Origin: Deltaproteobacteria bacterium
GTDB taxonomy: Bacteria > Myxococcota_A > UBA796 > UBA9615
DNA: 32,817 bases
NCBI GenBank assembly: GCA_002724675.1
Contig: PBPL01000124.1
Location: 1 to 32,817, forward strand
Direction of reading: 5' to 3'
The position numbers and the translations under genes are program-made. Below, piece after piece: positions 6,639 through 16,298 of the stretch. The notes beneath the pieces are model-generated. The model saw nothing but the letters and a program-made list of their open reading frames with translations, searched no databases and was not told where the DNA came from. Position 1 is the stretch's first letter; the number at the start of each line of letters is the position of its first letter.

Positions 6639-7715
6639 TCAGTGAGGGTGTCCTCGACTCTTCTTGGGACGCAGATCCAGGAACCCCGAGATGCCGAACG
6701 TAAGCGTCAGCGGCCGTGTGAACTGACCTCCACGGCTTTTCTGAAAGGCGTTGGCAAGCATCGCGCCCTGCACCGCAAGCTGGGGAGTAATGTTCCAGAT
6801 GAGACCCAGATGTACGCCCGCAGACAGCAAGCCTGAGTTCTGGCCCAGCTCGCCTTGCCATCGCTCTGGCCAGTTACCGCTCACCACAGCGAGCAACAAC
6901 AGCTGCAGGGAGCGAAGAGGGGCAGGCGGACGAAGCATCGGCCCCACCGACCCGCGCAATTGGACTGGGCCTTGGTACCCCTTCTTGTTGGCGTAGAGCG
7001 GGAACCGCCCCGAGACGCTACTAAACATGCCCAAGGTCTCGCCTCGGACAATGAGACGAAACGAGGCGAGGGGGTCGACGGTTCCGTTGCCGAACTGCAG
7101 GTGTTGATGCTCTTCCTGGGACTCAGCCGCGGCAAAAGGATCTTCCTCGGTGCGCCCCGTGGGCAGCGCAACACCCACCCCACCACCCACGATCAAAGGG
7201 GAACCGGGAGGCTCCCCCGTCCAACCGGCAACAAATCGCGCGTCGCCCAAACCAAACAACCACTCGTTGCGGTGATGGAAGTCCCCATAGGCTGGCTCAT
7301 AAGGGGTCCCATCGAACAAGAGGTACTCGATCTCCGCGCGGCGAAGGTCGATGGGCAGGTGGAACCCAAGATGAAAGCCTCGACCAAGACCCGCCGAGAT
7401 CGAAGGCTCGAGACGAGCCAAGAAAATGCTCTGATGGTGTCTGTGGTCGGGAACGAATTGCTCCGCACAGGTCTCAGGCGCAACCTCGGGGCAGACCGCG
7501 TCGTGGACGGCCTGGCTCCGGGCGCCGGTGACCGCAAGATCCAGGCGCAGCTGTCCCAGCAGTAAGCCGGGATTCGTATCGGATGCTCCAACCTGGAGCC
7601 GCGGGTTGCTTCAGCCCGCTCACTGAGCGACCGCCGCCGAGGGCAGTGCCATGAGCAGCACGATGATCGCGAGCCAGAGCGGGCGCAGCCGCCAGGACAA
7701 ACTCTCTTCGCTCAT
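6639..7715 (-). CDS. Putative outer-membrane beta-barrel selenoprotein with two in-frame TGA codons (Sec-x-x-Sec)
   Basis: The frame starts at ATG 7715, overlapping the upstream stop as ATGA. Residues 1-31 form a signal peptide (WRLRPLWLAIIVLLMA, cleavage near AVA-Q). Residues 32 and 35 are TGA codons (7622-7620, 7613-7611), reading Q-U-A-G-U-S-N-P if decoded as selenocysteine. The same frame is then open to 6639, 358 residues in all. The mature part looks like an outer-membrane barrel: alternating amphipathic strands, conserved-looking FDGTPYEPAYGDFHHRNEW and GVGVALPTGRTEEDPF, two further cysteines (75, 83) and a terminal strand-like segment. No ATG, GTG or TTG occurs in frame between the TGAs and TTG at 7421, so restart would lose the first strands. 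TGA ends other genes here, so a wholesale code change is unlikely. I recall related myxobacterial proteins with CxxC at this position but cannot verify that. The alternative is a gene with two nonsense mutations. Confidence 0.62.
7585..7619 (-). promoter_or_regulatory. Candidate bacterial SECIS element downstream of the paired UGA codons
   Basis: On the minus strand GCTCCA (7599-7594), loop GGT, TGGAGC (7590-7585) forms a perfect 6-bp hairpin. It starts 11 nt after the second TGA, and its loop lies 17 and 26 nt after the two TGAs, both within the usual bacterial SECIS window. The CAGGUU apex resembles the AGGUCU loop of the E. coli fdhF SECIS. A second hairpin, GCGGG/CCCGC (7619-7615 with 7605-7601), holds the second TGA in its loop. 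Short GC-rich hairpins also arise by chance, so this is suggestive only. Confidence 0.5.
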
Positions 7716-8530
7716 GGCTGGCCGCCTCGCTTTCGGTGCCGCTCAATCACCGACAGGACTCGCTTCACATCCATGCCCTTGTAGATCAGCTTCCCGCCCG
7801 GTGCGTGGACCAGAAACCAAGGCACGCCCTTGACGTAGGCAAGGTGCTGACCAACCACGGGCTGATTGTACGAAGTCTCCGGGTCCTGGCCGTCCAGACT
7901 CACCGCCCGAATGGCCACGTCAGGATGAGAGGTCAAGTATTCCTGCAATGTCTCAGCGGCATCATGACACGGAGAACACCAAGGGGCGCCAAAGTCGATC
8001 ACCGTGTACTTGTCGGCGACGATGTGCTGGTCGAGTTCTACCTCCTCCCCACGGGAGATGGTGACCACATCCAGCCCTTGTCCGCGGTGGTCCCAGGGGT
8101 CGGCAAAGGCCACCTTGATGTCCTCTGGGCAACGCTCGGTCGAATCGAGCCGCACCAACGCATAGCCGGCAGCCAGCAGCGCTTCCCCCATCGCTGATGA
8201 CGAGACCGAAGCCTCGGTCTTGACGCAAGCCACTCCTTTGTGAGTAGACACTAGGGCTGAGGCAACGCCGGGGACGCTCTCCAGCGCGGAACGAACCTTC
8301 GACGCACAGCCCACACAGGTCATGCCACTCACTTCCACCAGCAGTACGGAGCCAGAGGCTTTGGCTGTCTCGGCGGTCGCCGAAGGCGCCGCAGAGCCCT
8401 CAGACGCCCAACAAGCACCCAAGAGCAAGGCTGCGCACAGAAGCGCTGGATGGACACCTGGCGTGGTGAACGTTTGTAGCACCTCAAAGAGTCTAGCGAG
8501 ATTCGCTGAGCATGCCGCCCACAGGAGCAT
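7712..8530 (-). CDS. Exported HMA-thioredoxin fusion lipoprotein
   Basis: This 272-residue product is predicted from ATG 8530, chosen for its GGGAGG site four to five bases upstream. GTG 8482 would give a more normal signal length, and the frame itself opens at 8608. The hydrophobic segment ends in lipobox LLGAC (Cys40). An HMA heavy-metal-binding domain follows (about residues 61-125) with the metal site MTCVGC (Cys72, Cys75). A thioredoxin-like domain (about 165-272) has active site WCSPC (Cys185, Cys188) and the cis-proline segment KGVPWFLV. HMA domains bind soft metals such as copper or mercury, and thioredoxin-fold domains do disulfide exchange; joining them suggests metal-linked thiol redox chemistry outside the cytoplasm (inference). 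The stop overlaps the start of the barrel gene as ATGA, so the two products are translationally coupled. It is divergent from the MOSC gene. Confidence 0.85.
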   Translation of the reverse strand: MLLWAACSANLARLFEVLQTFTTPGVHPALLCAALLLGACWASEGSAAPSATAETAKASGSVLLVEVSGMTCVGCASKVRSALESVPGVASALVSTHKGVACVKTEASVSSSAMGEALLAAGYALVRLDSTERCPEDIKVAFADPWDHRGQGLDVVTISRGEEVELDQHIVADKYTVIDFGAPWCSPCHDAAETLQEYLTSHPDVAIRAVSLDGQDPETSYNQPVVGQHLAYVKGVPWFLVHAPGGKLIYKGMDVKRVLSVIERHRKRGGQP

Positions 8531-8591
8531 CTGTCCTCCCTGGCCCCCCAGACTGCTAGGCTTGCTCCACCGCCAGTGAAGAAGGCCCCCA

Positions 8592-9263
8592 ATGAAGCTC
8601 CTCTCCATCCAGGTAGGACAGCCCCGAAGCTACGGAACACGGGGCGCTGACGACCCCATGGAGCGGCCGTTTCGAACGTCCTTCCGCAAGGAGGCCGTTG
8701 GGGGCTCTGTGTTTGTGCACCACACTCATGTGGAGGGAGACAAGGTCTCCAACACCCGTGTGCACGGGGGCCCAGAAATGGCCGTCCTGGCCTACGCGAC
8801 GGAGCATTACGAGCGATGGCGCCAGGAGCTCAGTCTCGAGGACATGGGACCTGGGGGCTTTGCGGAGAACCTCTCTGTCCAAGGCATGAGCGAAGACTCT
8901 GTCTGTATCGGTGACATCTACGACCTTGGCCCCTGTCGGCTTCAGGTCTCCCTCCCCCGGCTTCCCTGCCCCAACATCTCCCGGTTTTGGAAAATCAAGG
9001 GGCTTCACCTTCAGGTCAAAGCCACTGGAAGGACGGGCTGGTACCTGCGGGTGCTCCGCGAAGGTTCCATCCATGCTGGGCTCCCGTTTGAGCTCGTGGA
9101 GCGCCCCTGTCCCACCTGGACCATCTCCTCTACCAACCGGGTGTGGCACGGAGAAGGCAGCGAGGAGGAGGTCGCAAGCCTCGCAGCGTGCGCGCACCTA
9201 ACGCTCCACTGGCGGGACCAACTGCAGGCGCGCCTCCAGCGTGCACAAGCCAGGAGGTCATAG
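8592..9263 (+). CDS. MOSC domain-containing protein (YiiM-like)
   Basis: The 223-residue protein carries a MOSC domain (about residues 30-165), the beta-strand-rich fold shared with molybdenum-cofactor sulfurase C-termini and YiiM, which act on sulfur transfer or on N-hydroxylated base analogues. Matching landmarks are RVHGGPEMAVLAYATEHY, the GGFAENLSV segment, IGDIYDLGPCRLQVS and the conserved cysteine in LPRLPCPNISRF (Cys126). A C-terminal helical region of about 50 residues follows, as in YiiM-type proteins. The substrate cannot be read from sequence. It is divergent from the HMA-thioredoxin gene with a 61-bp gap that must hold both promoters, and ends 11 bp from the convergent hemL stop. 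Confidence 0.9.
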   Translation: MKLLSIQVGQPRSYGTRGADDPMERPFRTSFRKEAVGGSVFVHHTHVEGDKVSNTRVHGGPEMAVLAYATEHYERWRQELSLEDMGPGGFAENLSVQGMSEDSVCIGDIYDLGPCRLQVSLPRLPCPNISRFWKIKGLHLQVKATGRTGWYLRVLREGSIHAGLPFELVERPCPTWTISSTNRVWHGEGSEEEVASLAACAHLTLHWRDQLQARLQRAQARRS

Positions 9264-14091: not shown

Positions 14092-15369
14092 TTAGGCCGT
14101 CTTTCGGCCCTCATCCTTGTGCGTTTCTGCCTCAGAGGGAGAGTTGTCGTCTGGCGAGGGTGTCTCTGAATCCACCCCAAACAGGTGCTTGTCGATGGCC
14201 AATAGGCCATCAAAGTCAAAGATATCGTCTTCCATGCGCGGAACATCCACGATCTGGACCTTGCGGCCCGCAAAGGCCTTCAGGCTTTCAATGGCTCGCT
14301 GCTCTTCGTTCGCTCGCGCAACCGCCCGATCAAAGTGGCCCTCGAGCCGATCACAGAACACCCGAAGCTCTCCGTCATCGGCCGCAGAGCCCAGATGATC
14401 CGCAATCCACTCTCGCTCCATCTGCCCCAAGAAGCGGCCGCTGTTGTCTTCCGCGCGCTCGGTTCCTGCGTGCGGGGTGACTTGGTTCACCACGAACAGG
14501 CCCCCTGGCATTTCCCGCTCCACGAGCTGGGAGTGGAAATAGCGAGCCTCCTCCATGGACGTACTCTGGGGCGTACACACCACGACAAACCGGGTCAGTT
14601 GCCGGTTGCGCAACAAGGCCGAGACGGCCTCCGCCCGCTCTCGGAACCCCGCGATGAGCTGGTGAAAGGCCAGGAAGAATTCAGCTATTTCGTCGAGGAA
14701 CTCGTTCCCGAACACATTGCCCAGGAGCCGATACACGAGAGATCCCGTCCCCGAGAGAAGCTGAATGCCGCGCTTCCGGCCATCTTCATGGGGCTTCAAG
14801 AACCACCCGACGATCTTCTCGTCGAGGAACCGAGACAAGCGACCACTCGCTTCCAAGAAGTCGATGGCGTTCTTCATCGGTGGCGTATCGAGCACCACCA
14901 GGTCGTAGCGACCACTGTTGTGGAGGTCGTAGAGCTTCTCGCTCGCCATATAGTCATGCGAGGCGGAAAGCGTGTCGCTGATGTGTCGATAGACTCGGTT
15001 GCCCAGCACCCGCGATCGTGTCGTGTCGTCGGGCGAGACCCGCGCGATGACCTCGTCAAAGGTCGTTCGCGTGTCCAACATCATGGCGTGCAAGGTCCCC
15101 TTCGGCTTCACACCAAACTGCTCGAACTTCTCGAGGGGTATCTGTCGTTCGTCGTTGCCCAGTGCCTCCAAGCCAAGGGAGTTTGCTAGGCGCCGCGCGG
15201 GGTCGATGGTGACCACAATGGCCCGCCGTCCGGCGATCGCTGCCTGGATCGCGATGGCCGCGGCCGTCGTTGTCTTGCCCACACCCCCGCTGCCCACGCA
15301 GACCACCAATCGGCGATCTTCGATCACCGAGAGAAGCTCGTTCTGGGCCGGGCTCTGGTCGGCACTCAT
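14092..15369 (-). CDS. ArsA/Get3-family ATPase, subunit with atypical P-loop
   Basis: This 425-residue product starts at ATG 15369, which overlaps the upstream stop as ATGA; a GTG nine bases earlier is less likely. The N-terminal P-loop is GSGGVGKT (residues 26-33) followed by TTAAAIAIQAA, with VTIDPARRLANSLG (the A-loop/switch region of the ArsA/Get3 family) and DLVVLDTPPMKNAIDFL (switch II). The signature lysine of deviant Walker A motifs (GKGG) is Ser27 here. The C-terminal third is acidic and charged. ArsA/Get3 ATPases are dimers that bind thiol metals or tail-anchored proteins. The pair with the next gene resembles actinobacterial Rv3679/Rv3680-type pairs (from memory). The cargo is unknown, and no arsB or arsR gene is nearby to support arsenite export. 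Confidence 0.88.
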   Translation of the reverse strand: MSADQSPAQNELLSVIEDRRLVVCVGSGGVGKTTTAAAIAIQAAIAGRRAIVVTIDPARRLANSLGLEALGNDERQIPLEKFEQFGVKPKGTLHAMMLDTRTTFDEVIARVSPDDTTRSRVLGNRVYRHISDTLSASHDYMASEKLYDLHNSGRYDLVVLDTPPMKNAIDFLEASGRLSRFLDEKIVGWFLKPHEDGRKRGIQLLSGTGSLVYRLLGNVFGNEFLDEIAEFFLAFHQLIAGFRERAEAVSALLRNRQLTRFVVVCTPQSTSMEEARYFHSQLVEREMPGGLFVVNQVTPHAGTERAEDNSGRFLGQMEREWIADHLGSAADDGELRVFCDRLEGHFDRAVARANEEQRAIESLKAFAGRKVQIVDVPRMEDDIFDFDGLLAIDKHLFGVDSETPSPDDNSPSEAETHKDEGRKTA

Positions 15370-16298
15370 TGCATCCACGCTCCCAAGACCAGCGAGAGGG
15401 CGTCGGCCACCTGCGAGTGGGCTCCCGGGACCTGCGGCAAGAAGCCCGTGTCCTCACCAAAGTCCACCTTGAGTCGGGTCAAGCCTTCTTCGGCAACCCG
15501 CTGCTCCCGCCGAATGTCTCGAGCAGCCGAAGCAGCAGCAGCAACTCGGGAGGGGACGTCTGCGAGCCGGTCTTGGCCTTCACTGAGCTCTAGGAGGTCT
15601 GCCAACAGGGTCAAGTCACGCTCTGTGAGGCGCTCGTCGGGATACCGGTTCAAGAGGACGCCGCCCACCGGAGGCAGGCCCATAGCAACCATTTTCTCCC
15701 GGGTCTCCAGTGTCTCGTTGATGGGCATCTCCCCCGGAAGCGCGCAAAACAAGAGCGCTGCGACCTCGGGGTCATTGAAACGCTCAGCAATTTGCTCTGC
15801 TCGCTTCCGCAGCGGCCCTCGGTCGAAGGCGCGCTGCGCAAGAAACGGACACCGAAAGAGGGCAAGGGCGTGTCCAGATGCGGGAAGATCCACAATCAAG
15901 TGGTCCCACCGGGGGTCGTATGATTGCTCCCAAATTCGCGACAAGAGCACGAGTTCTCGAGCTCCGGGAGTCGCCGTAAGAAACAGACGAACAACCTTGT
16001 TTCTCAAGATGAGCCGCACGACGCTCTTCACAGGAACAACCGACTCCACATACGAACGGAGCGCATCGAAAAACTCGACGTTGGCGCCCTCTATTCGCGG
16101 CGCCAGGACGCGAGGCTCGAAGCTGGGCTCGCCACCAAAGTACGAGGGGAGGTTGGGCCGAGGCGCGTCCACCTCCAACAGCAGCACTCGCCGTCCACGA
16201 CGCGCCAGCGCTCGAGCGAGAGCAACACAAACAGCGGTCTTGCCCGTTCCACCCTTGCCGGTGACGAAGTAGACGCGACGAGAGGACAGGTCGATCAC
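15366..16298 (-). CDS. ArsA/Get3-family ATPase, subunit with intact deviant Walker A
   Basis: The 310-residue product starts at GTG 16298, four bases after the fabH stop. Its P-loop is GKGGTGKT (residues 14-21), including the signature lysine Lys15 that reaches across the dimer to the partner's nucleotide. Next come LLLEVDAPRPNLPSYF (switch I region) and DHLIVDLPASGHALALF (switch II). The second half contains the VGGVLLNRYPDERLTERD segment typical of this family. Together with the downstream subunit (overlapping ATGA) it probably forms a heterodimer. I infer a role in handling membrane or lipid-linked clients only from the location next to fabH; the sequence does not show the cargo. Confidence 0.88.
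   Translation of the reverse strand: MIDLSSRRVYFVTGKGGTGKTAVCVALARALARRGRRVLLLEVDAPRPNLPSYFGGEPSFEPRVLAPRIEGANVEFFDALRSYVESVVPVKSVVRLILRNKVVRLFLTATPGARELVLLSRIWEQSYDPRWDHLIVDLPASGHALALFRCPFLAQRAFDRGPLRKRAEQIAERFNDPEVAALLFCALPGEMPINETLETREKMVAMGLPPVGGVLLNRYPDERLTERDLTLLADLLELSEGQDRLADVPSRVAAAASAARDIRREQRVAEEGLTRLKVDFGEDTGFLPQVPGAHSQVADALSLVLGAWMQ

Follow-up and report, generated by a model that had tools for sequence, protein, structure and literature searches.

A putative outer-membrane beta-barrel selenoprotein family with an N-terminal Sec-x-x-Sec motif and a thioredoxin partner

Gene arrangement and reading frame

The stretch of DNA analysed here, referred to as the window, comprises 32,817 nucleotides of contig PBPL01000124.1 from a Deltaproteobacteria bacterium, and carries on its reverse strand two overlapping genes, the second of which very likely encodes a protein with two selenocysteine (Sec, U) residues (Table 1). 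The frame of this selenoprotein gene (window:6639-7715) runs for 358 codons and is uninterrupted but for TGA at codons 32 and 35. From ATG 7715 it begins with MSEESLSWRLRPLWLAIIVLLMALPSAAVAQ, followed by TGA (7622-7620), Ala-Gly and a further TGA (7613-7611), after which 323 codons stay open up to an ordinary TGA stop at 6641-6639. No frameshift, TAA, TAG or other damage was seen in the gene. The earliest in-frame ATG, GTG or TTG past the two TGA codons is TTG 7421, at codon 99, so that a product restarted there would be without its export signal and its initial strands. Throughout the family a hydrophobic segment with small residues at its end precedes the motif. We considered whether the first Sec might carry a lipoprotein anchor but discarded the idea, since in most cases AxA or GxA precedes the motif in place of a lipobox.

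Directly upstream lies the gene of an exported protein with a heavy-metal-associated (HMA) and a thioredoxin domain, whose stop codon overlaps the start of the selenoprotein gene as ATGA. Since both genes terminate in TGA, this triplet is still a stop in the selenoprotein transcript. A first-pass annotation, made from sequence alone, had claimed two in-frame TGA codons behind a signal peptide and ahead of 323 open codons, the lack of a start codon between them and residue 99, an upstream gene coupled by ATGA and containing two CxxC motifs, and no general reassignment of TGA. All of these claims held, the two motifs being those of the HMA and thioredoxin domains, and the frameshift or added damage that would have spoken against the gene was absent. 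Elsewhere in the window, two adjacent ArsA/GET3-like ATPase genes (PF02374) are found at 14092-16298, and the contig opens (1-50) with a CTGACT simple repeat, likely an assembly break.

Table 1. Coordinates of the selenoprotein gene, its partner gene and their features in the window.
Feature	Position	Strand	Evidence or remark
Selenoprotein gene, predicted outer-membrane beta-barrel precursor, 358 residues	6639..7715	(-)	Reading frame, 67 characterised family members, model like 12-stranded channels
Signal peptide, residues 1-30 (..LALPSAAVA/Q)	7626..7715	(-)	Predicted by eye from sequence
First Sec codon, TGA, codon 32	7620..7622	(-)	TGA in 29/29 first homologues; Sec in 51/67, Cys in 16/67 members
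Second Sec codon, TGA, codon 35	7611..7613	(-)	TGA in 29/29 first homologues; Sec in 57/67, Cys in 10/67 members
SECIS-like hairpin, GCUCCA-GGU-UGGAGC	7585..7599	(-)	6 bp stem, comparative evidence; absent in Cys forms
Partner gene, exported, lipobox-like LGAC, HMA and thioredoxin domains	7712..8608	(-)	Pfam HMA 5.6e-10, Thioredoxin 7.5e-6
HMA domain of partner, residues 91-149, MTCVGC	8162..8338	(-)	Pfam
Thioredoxin domain of partner, residues 191-241, active site WCSPC	7886..8038	(-)	Pfam

Motif states among homologues

In a first survey 187 relatives were searched and homologues were found in 38 genomes, nearly all full-length matches having exactly two internal TGA codons. All 29 loci first examined showed the pattern U-[PA]-[GA]-U-[SAG]-N-P-x-L right behind the signal peptide, and at identities of 25-58% every one of these homologues (29/29) had TGA at both positions, which upholds the earlier claim that random decay would rarely give such a pattern. 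Wider sampling, in which a profile was run against up to 379 genomes from the same phylum and the motif was then inspected, led to 67 characterised members, in which the motif was Sec-x-x-Sec (UxxU) in 51, Cys-x-x-Sec (CxxU) in 6 and Cys-x-x-Cys (CxxC) in 10. The motif always lay directly behind the signal peptide and was always followed by x-N-P-x-L. The first-pass annotation had named Cys at the TGA positions of homologues as the sign to look for, and only Cys or Sec occupied the two positions in the 67 members; that each position exchanges by itself, and with Cys alone, is what classically marks Sec.

On a supported maximum-likelihood tree at least five changes are needed among the UxxU, CxxU and CxxC states, and CxxC forms are placed in at least two separate positions. 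Four of the six CxxU members make up a sister clade of barrel-thioredoxin fusions of 432-453 residues. These four (L146, L147, L149 and L173, of genomes G130, G155, G110 and G074) have the motif CA[TS]U[SG]NP[AT]LPVGD, a hairpin as in the main family and a C-terminal thioredoxin domain, and are set off by a branch distance of 2.26. A single-sequence scan of a contig collection found no homologue. In an alignment-based scan of contigs U was back-translated as Cys, so that only Cys forms could be found, and two were recovered, both from Myxococcota (a Polyangiaceae and a Myxococcales MAG). Both members sit inside the tree beside the same-phylum genomes, and from this placement the phylum searched is inferred to be Myxococcota. 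No plasmid-borne relative was matched among 72,556 plasmids.

A conserved SECIS-like hairpin behind the second TGA

Published criteria for bSECIS-like elements are a G within the first two nucleotides of the loop, a loop 16-37 nt after the TGA and a stem of 4-16 bp (PMC13188914). The window hairpin satisfies them: its loop, GGU, lies 17 nt past the second TGA and 26 nt past the first, both distances being within the 16-37 nt range. Its MFE is -9.4, and taken by itself its stability is not above that of dinucleotide shuffles (z -0.36). A hairpin is present in nearly all Sec forms and absent from Cys forms, and in every Sec form in which it was found the apical loop lies 16-18 nt past the second TGA. 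The median stem measures 6 bp in UxxU members versus 2.75 bp in CxxC members, and codon shuffling gave p<0.05 for 65% of the former versus 0% of the latter. Across 28 distinct sequences, double changes were seen in 4 of 8 pairs and 82% of cells were paired, against at most 52% in slid controls; the compensatory pairs included C-G/G-C, C-G/U-A and A-U/C-G, and RNAalifold independently recovered a five-pair core of the hairpin. Synonymous sites within the stem are locked (Leu CTC in 27/29, Gly GGA in 26/28), while adjacent codons vary. Comparison thus demonstrates that the hairpin is conserved where a SECIS must be, and its covariation and synonymous constraint are evidence beyond anything in the first-pass annotation. 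One UxxU member (L167, genome G287), with the motif UTGUMNPVL, lacked a clear hairpin in the position usual for the family. We propose that SelB, together with one SECIS-like hairpin just past the second TGA, would direct Sec into both TGA codons; that a single hairpin serves both is inferred.

Selenium machinery and its co-occurrence with the Sec form

In the genome to which the window belongs, selA, selB and selD were all detected, at 468.7, 306 and 364.6 bits respectively, and each score exceeds the curated cut-off. The SelD of this genome (L046, G000:C204:1319-2272) is itself a Sec form with an in-frame TGA at the known Sec position (GUASKLP), and therefore a second selenoprotein is encoded there; a hairpin also follows the TGA of this selD. 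Searches of this draft, which is 90% complete, with the Rfam model, with the DNA of a relative's tRNA-Sec and by a neighbouring gene did not recover the tRNA-Sec. With the anticodon UCA, it is present in the same-family genomes G001, G002 and G004. Thus, of the four genes by which the proposal was to be judged, selA, selB and selD were found, and selC was found in same-family genomes and not in the draft itself.

Among the genomes tested, tRNA-Sec(UCA) was detected in 9 of 12 with a UxxU form versus none of 3 with a CxxC form, and SelA in 48 of 54 Sec-form genomes versus 1 of 8 Cys-form genomes (Fisher p=2.5e-5, a value that ignores the kinship of the genomes, the events not being independent). 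There was no SelA match in the UxxU genomes G033 and G270 (reported to be at least 87% complete) or in the CxxU genome G307 (96%). In genome G160 (L100:7176-7438) a selenoprotein of the barrel-thioredoxin fusion type is followed about 163 bp downstream by a tRNA-Sec and then by selA, all on one strand. In the absence of protein or 75Se evidence, the comparisons make it very likely that both TGA codons are decoded as Sec.

The predicted barrel

In the 24 members scanned, searches of Pfam, NCBIfam and the PDB returned no sequence family for the barrel part, apart from a marginal match to DUF7840 (0.005) in a single member. An AlphaFold2 model made with a three-sequence alignment had about 12 strands past residue 55, at low confidence (pLDDT 60.7, pTM 0.61), and left the Sec segment unresolved; a repeat with the mature chain was no better. 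The best Foldseek matches of this low-confidence model were FapF (5o65, 1e-7) and the COG4313 channel 4rl8 (3.6e-6), with a target TM of about 0.6. In the model about 24 mature residues, the Sec motif first, lie before strand 1. Conservation beyond the motif includes His71, Cys75, Cys83, His147-His148-Arg149, His203-Gln-His205 and Trp286, with the five single-numbered or paired His (71, 147, 148, 203, 205) and both Cys kept by no fewer than 20 of the 24 members in the alignment. That the protein is an outer-membrane barrel is likely, as predicted from the low-confidence model and the signal peptide. Of what was originally proposed, then, the Sec-x-x-Sec selenoprotein core is supported, and the barrel nature rests on a model of low confidence. 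After export and cleavage of the signal peptide the mature chain would start (Q)-Sec-Ala-Gly-Sec-Ser-Asn-Pro and, as inferred from that model, may continue as an outer-membrane channel of about 12 beta-strands. The Sec-x-x-Sec segment would then be periplasmic, within the N-terminal residues that come ahead of strand 1, at the mouth or in the lumen.

The thioredoxin partner

A thioredoxin domain was found next door or fused in cis in 56 of 67 members. In several lineages it is fused onto the C-terminus of the barrel, and in three aligned members the fusion is made via a His-rich linker. The HMA motif is often degenerate (DDCC) in the partners of relatives, while the thioredoxin CxxC is kept. 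The exported thioredoxin protein lies upstream in most relatives, Cys forms among them, and the partners of the latter are lipoprotein-like thioredoxins that have segments rich in Cys and His. In two of these partners (L077:7285-7944 and L078:7348-7992) a repeated CEHxVPExxC ... CHPxL segment was seen before the thioredoxin domain, replacing the HMA domain. A survey of the neighbourhoods of relatives showed the thioredoxin partner to be the sole conserved neighbour and indicated no substrate. Gene fusion and constant adjacency are good evidence that the thioredoxin and the barrel act together, and a functional pairing of the two is likely.

Proposed function and competing explanations

The joint reading, a selenoprotein barrel served by a thioredoxin partner, is in our judgement likely, a judgement that leaves aside the choice between redox and metal. 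In this reading the exported thioredoxin would most likely keep a diselenide reduced or exchange a soft metal with the Sec pair, and the diselenol would serve as a redox relay or as a redox-sensitive channel gate. We consider such a relay or gate nearly as apt to be right as wrong, which places it slightly ahead of a role mainly in the handling of soft metals. The outcome may be that the channel is gated, that a substrate coming in is reduced or that soft metals are handled. A bolder reading, that the diselenide/diselenol state of Sec-x-x-Sec in an N-terminal plug, set by the dedicated periplasmic thioredoxin or by metal, opens and closes the pore, is unlikely; if true, it would define a novel class of redox-gated channels in the outer membrane.

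It could be argued that the TGA codons are nonsense mutations or sequencing errors and that the protein is not made. The gene does have two in-frame stops, it comes from a draft metagenome assembly and there are no experimental data. However, both TGA codons recur in 51 members and one in 6 more, the window gene has neither TAA or TAG nor a frameshift, and the hairpin and the synonymous constraint remain to be accounted for, so that this explanation is all but excluded. Alternatively, TGA might be read as another amino acid through general reassignment, a suppressor or read-through, and the failure to find tRNA-Sec in the draft genome could be taken to favour this. Against it, TGA terminates both the selenoprotein gene and the overlapping upstream gene, it exchanges only with Cys among members, selA, selB and a Sec-type selD are present in the same genome, and across genomes the Sec form goes together with SelA; we regard reassignment as very unlikely.

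A closer rival concerns function. Here the selenol pair, with the His and Cys of the barrel, would bind Cu, Hg or similar metals, the HMA-thioredoxin partner would be a metal chaperone, and the selenoprotein would be an outer-membrane metal port or sensor and not a thiol-redox device. The HMA domain of the partner with its MTCVGC, the His-rich linkers of the fusions, the conserved His and Cys of the barrel and the Cys/His-rich segments of the Cys-form partners all speak for this possibility, and many predicted transport selenoproteins have been linked to metal resistance (PMC13188914). On the other hand, the HMA motif has degenerated in many partners in which the thioredoxin CxxC persists, no conserved metal transporter or metal regulator was found in the neighbourhood, and redox pairs just as typically show CxxC or UxxU beside a thioredoxin. 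We therefore hold the metal reading to be a serious candidate that falls a little short of an even chance, and give a narrow preference to the redox relay or gate.

Whichever function applies, the family is a widespread addition to the selenoproteins, most of its members having two Sec, and comes from a phylum that the reviewed catalogue does not mention; for paired Sec, the N-terminus of an outer-membrane channel, if the predicted barrel is correct, is an uncommon site. Ordinary gene callers would place the start past the TGA codons and drop the signal peptide, and so the family is probably mis-annotated wherever it is found. The natural UxxU, CxxU and CxxC versions, together with the barrel-thioredoxin fusions, make the benefit of selenium over sulphur directly testable.

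Comparison with known systems

A 2026 review catalogues 119 prokaryotic selenoprotein families (PMC13188914). The new family matches none of them, although an earlier description elsewhere is not ruled out, and a word search of the review's text returned no myxobacterial names. The partner scored 35.2 bits against NF041115, for which the cut-off is 95, and the barrel protein matched 0 NCBIfam families, none of the 24 members scanned matching NF041027 or NF049945; likewise, a COG4313 or PF13557-type profile gave no Pfam match for any of 24 members.

Among known channels, the COG4313 protein Pput2725 (4rl8) is 12-stranded, and its lumen is constricted by the ~14 N-terminal residues, which fold inwards from the periplasmic side (PMC4493636). 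In its low-confidence model the new protein resembles COG4313 and FapF, with a predicted barrel of about 12 strands, a similar length and some 24 residues ahead of strand 1, but unlike them it has Sec or Cys at both ends of the x-x motif at its mature N-terminus, conserved His and Cys, and a thioredoxin partner. Two Sec as UxxU are also found in NF041115, a UxxU metal-binding selenoprotein, and the metal-binding, HMA-like theme of this family and of the MerT/CopZ-type selenoproteins (NF045683) is common to the partner gene. In those families, however, it is the metal-binding protein that contains Sec, whereas in the new one the barrel carries the UxxU and the HMA protein next to it has Cys. 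Thioredoxin-fold selenoproteins and the rhodanese/DsbD-like TsoB (NF045694) share with the new family, as proposed here, thiol/selenol exchange involving a thioredoxin domain, but only the fused thioredoxin domain of the new family matches them, and its Sec residues are outside that domain.

The first-pass annotation had known of no described outer-membrane barrel selenoprotein of this kind, a claim that held only in part, since other barrel families are listed (PMC13188914), namely the TonB-dependent receptor of FCYXU type (NF049945) and the GSU2204-family MtrB/PioB (NF041027). Like the new family, both are predicted outer-membrane barrel proteins containing Sec. Unlike it, each contains a single Sec and lacks an N-terminal UxxU, and neither is listed with a thioredoxin partner. 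Outer-membrane barrel selenoproteins as such were thus already listed, and what likely is new, and appears so from these comparisons, is the present family and its arrangement of an N-terminal UxxU with a thioredoxin partner.
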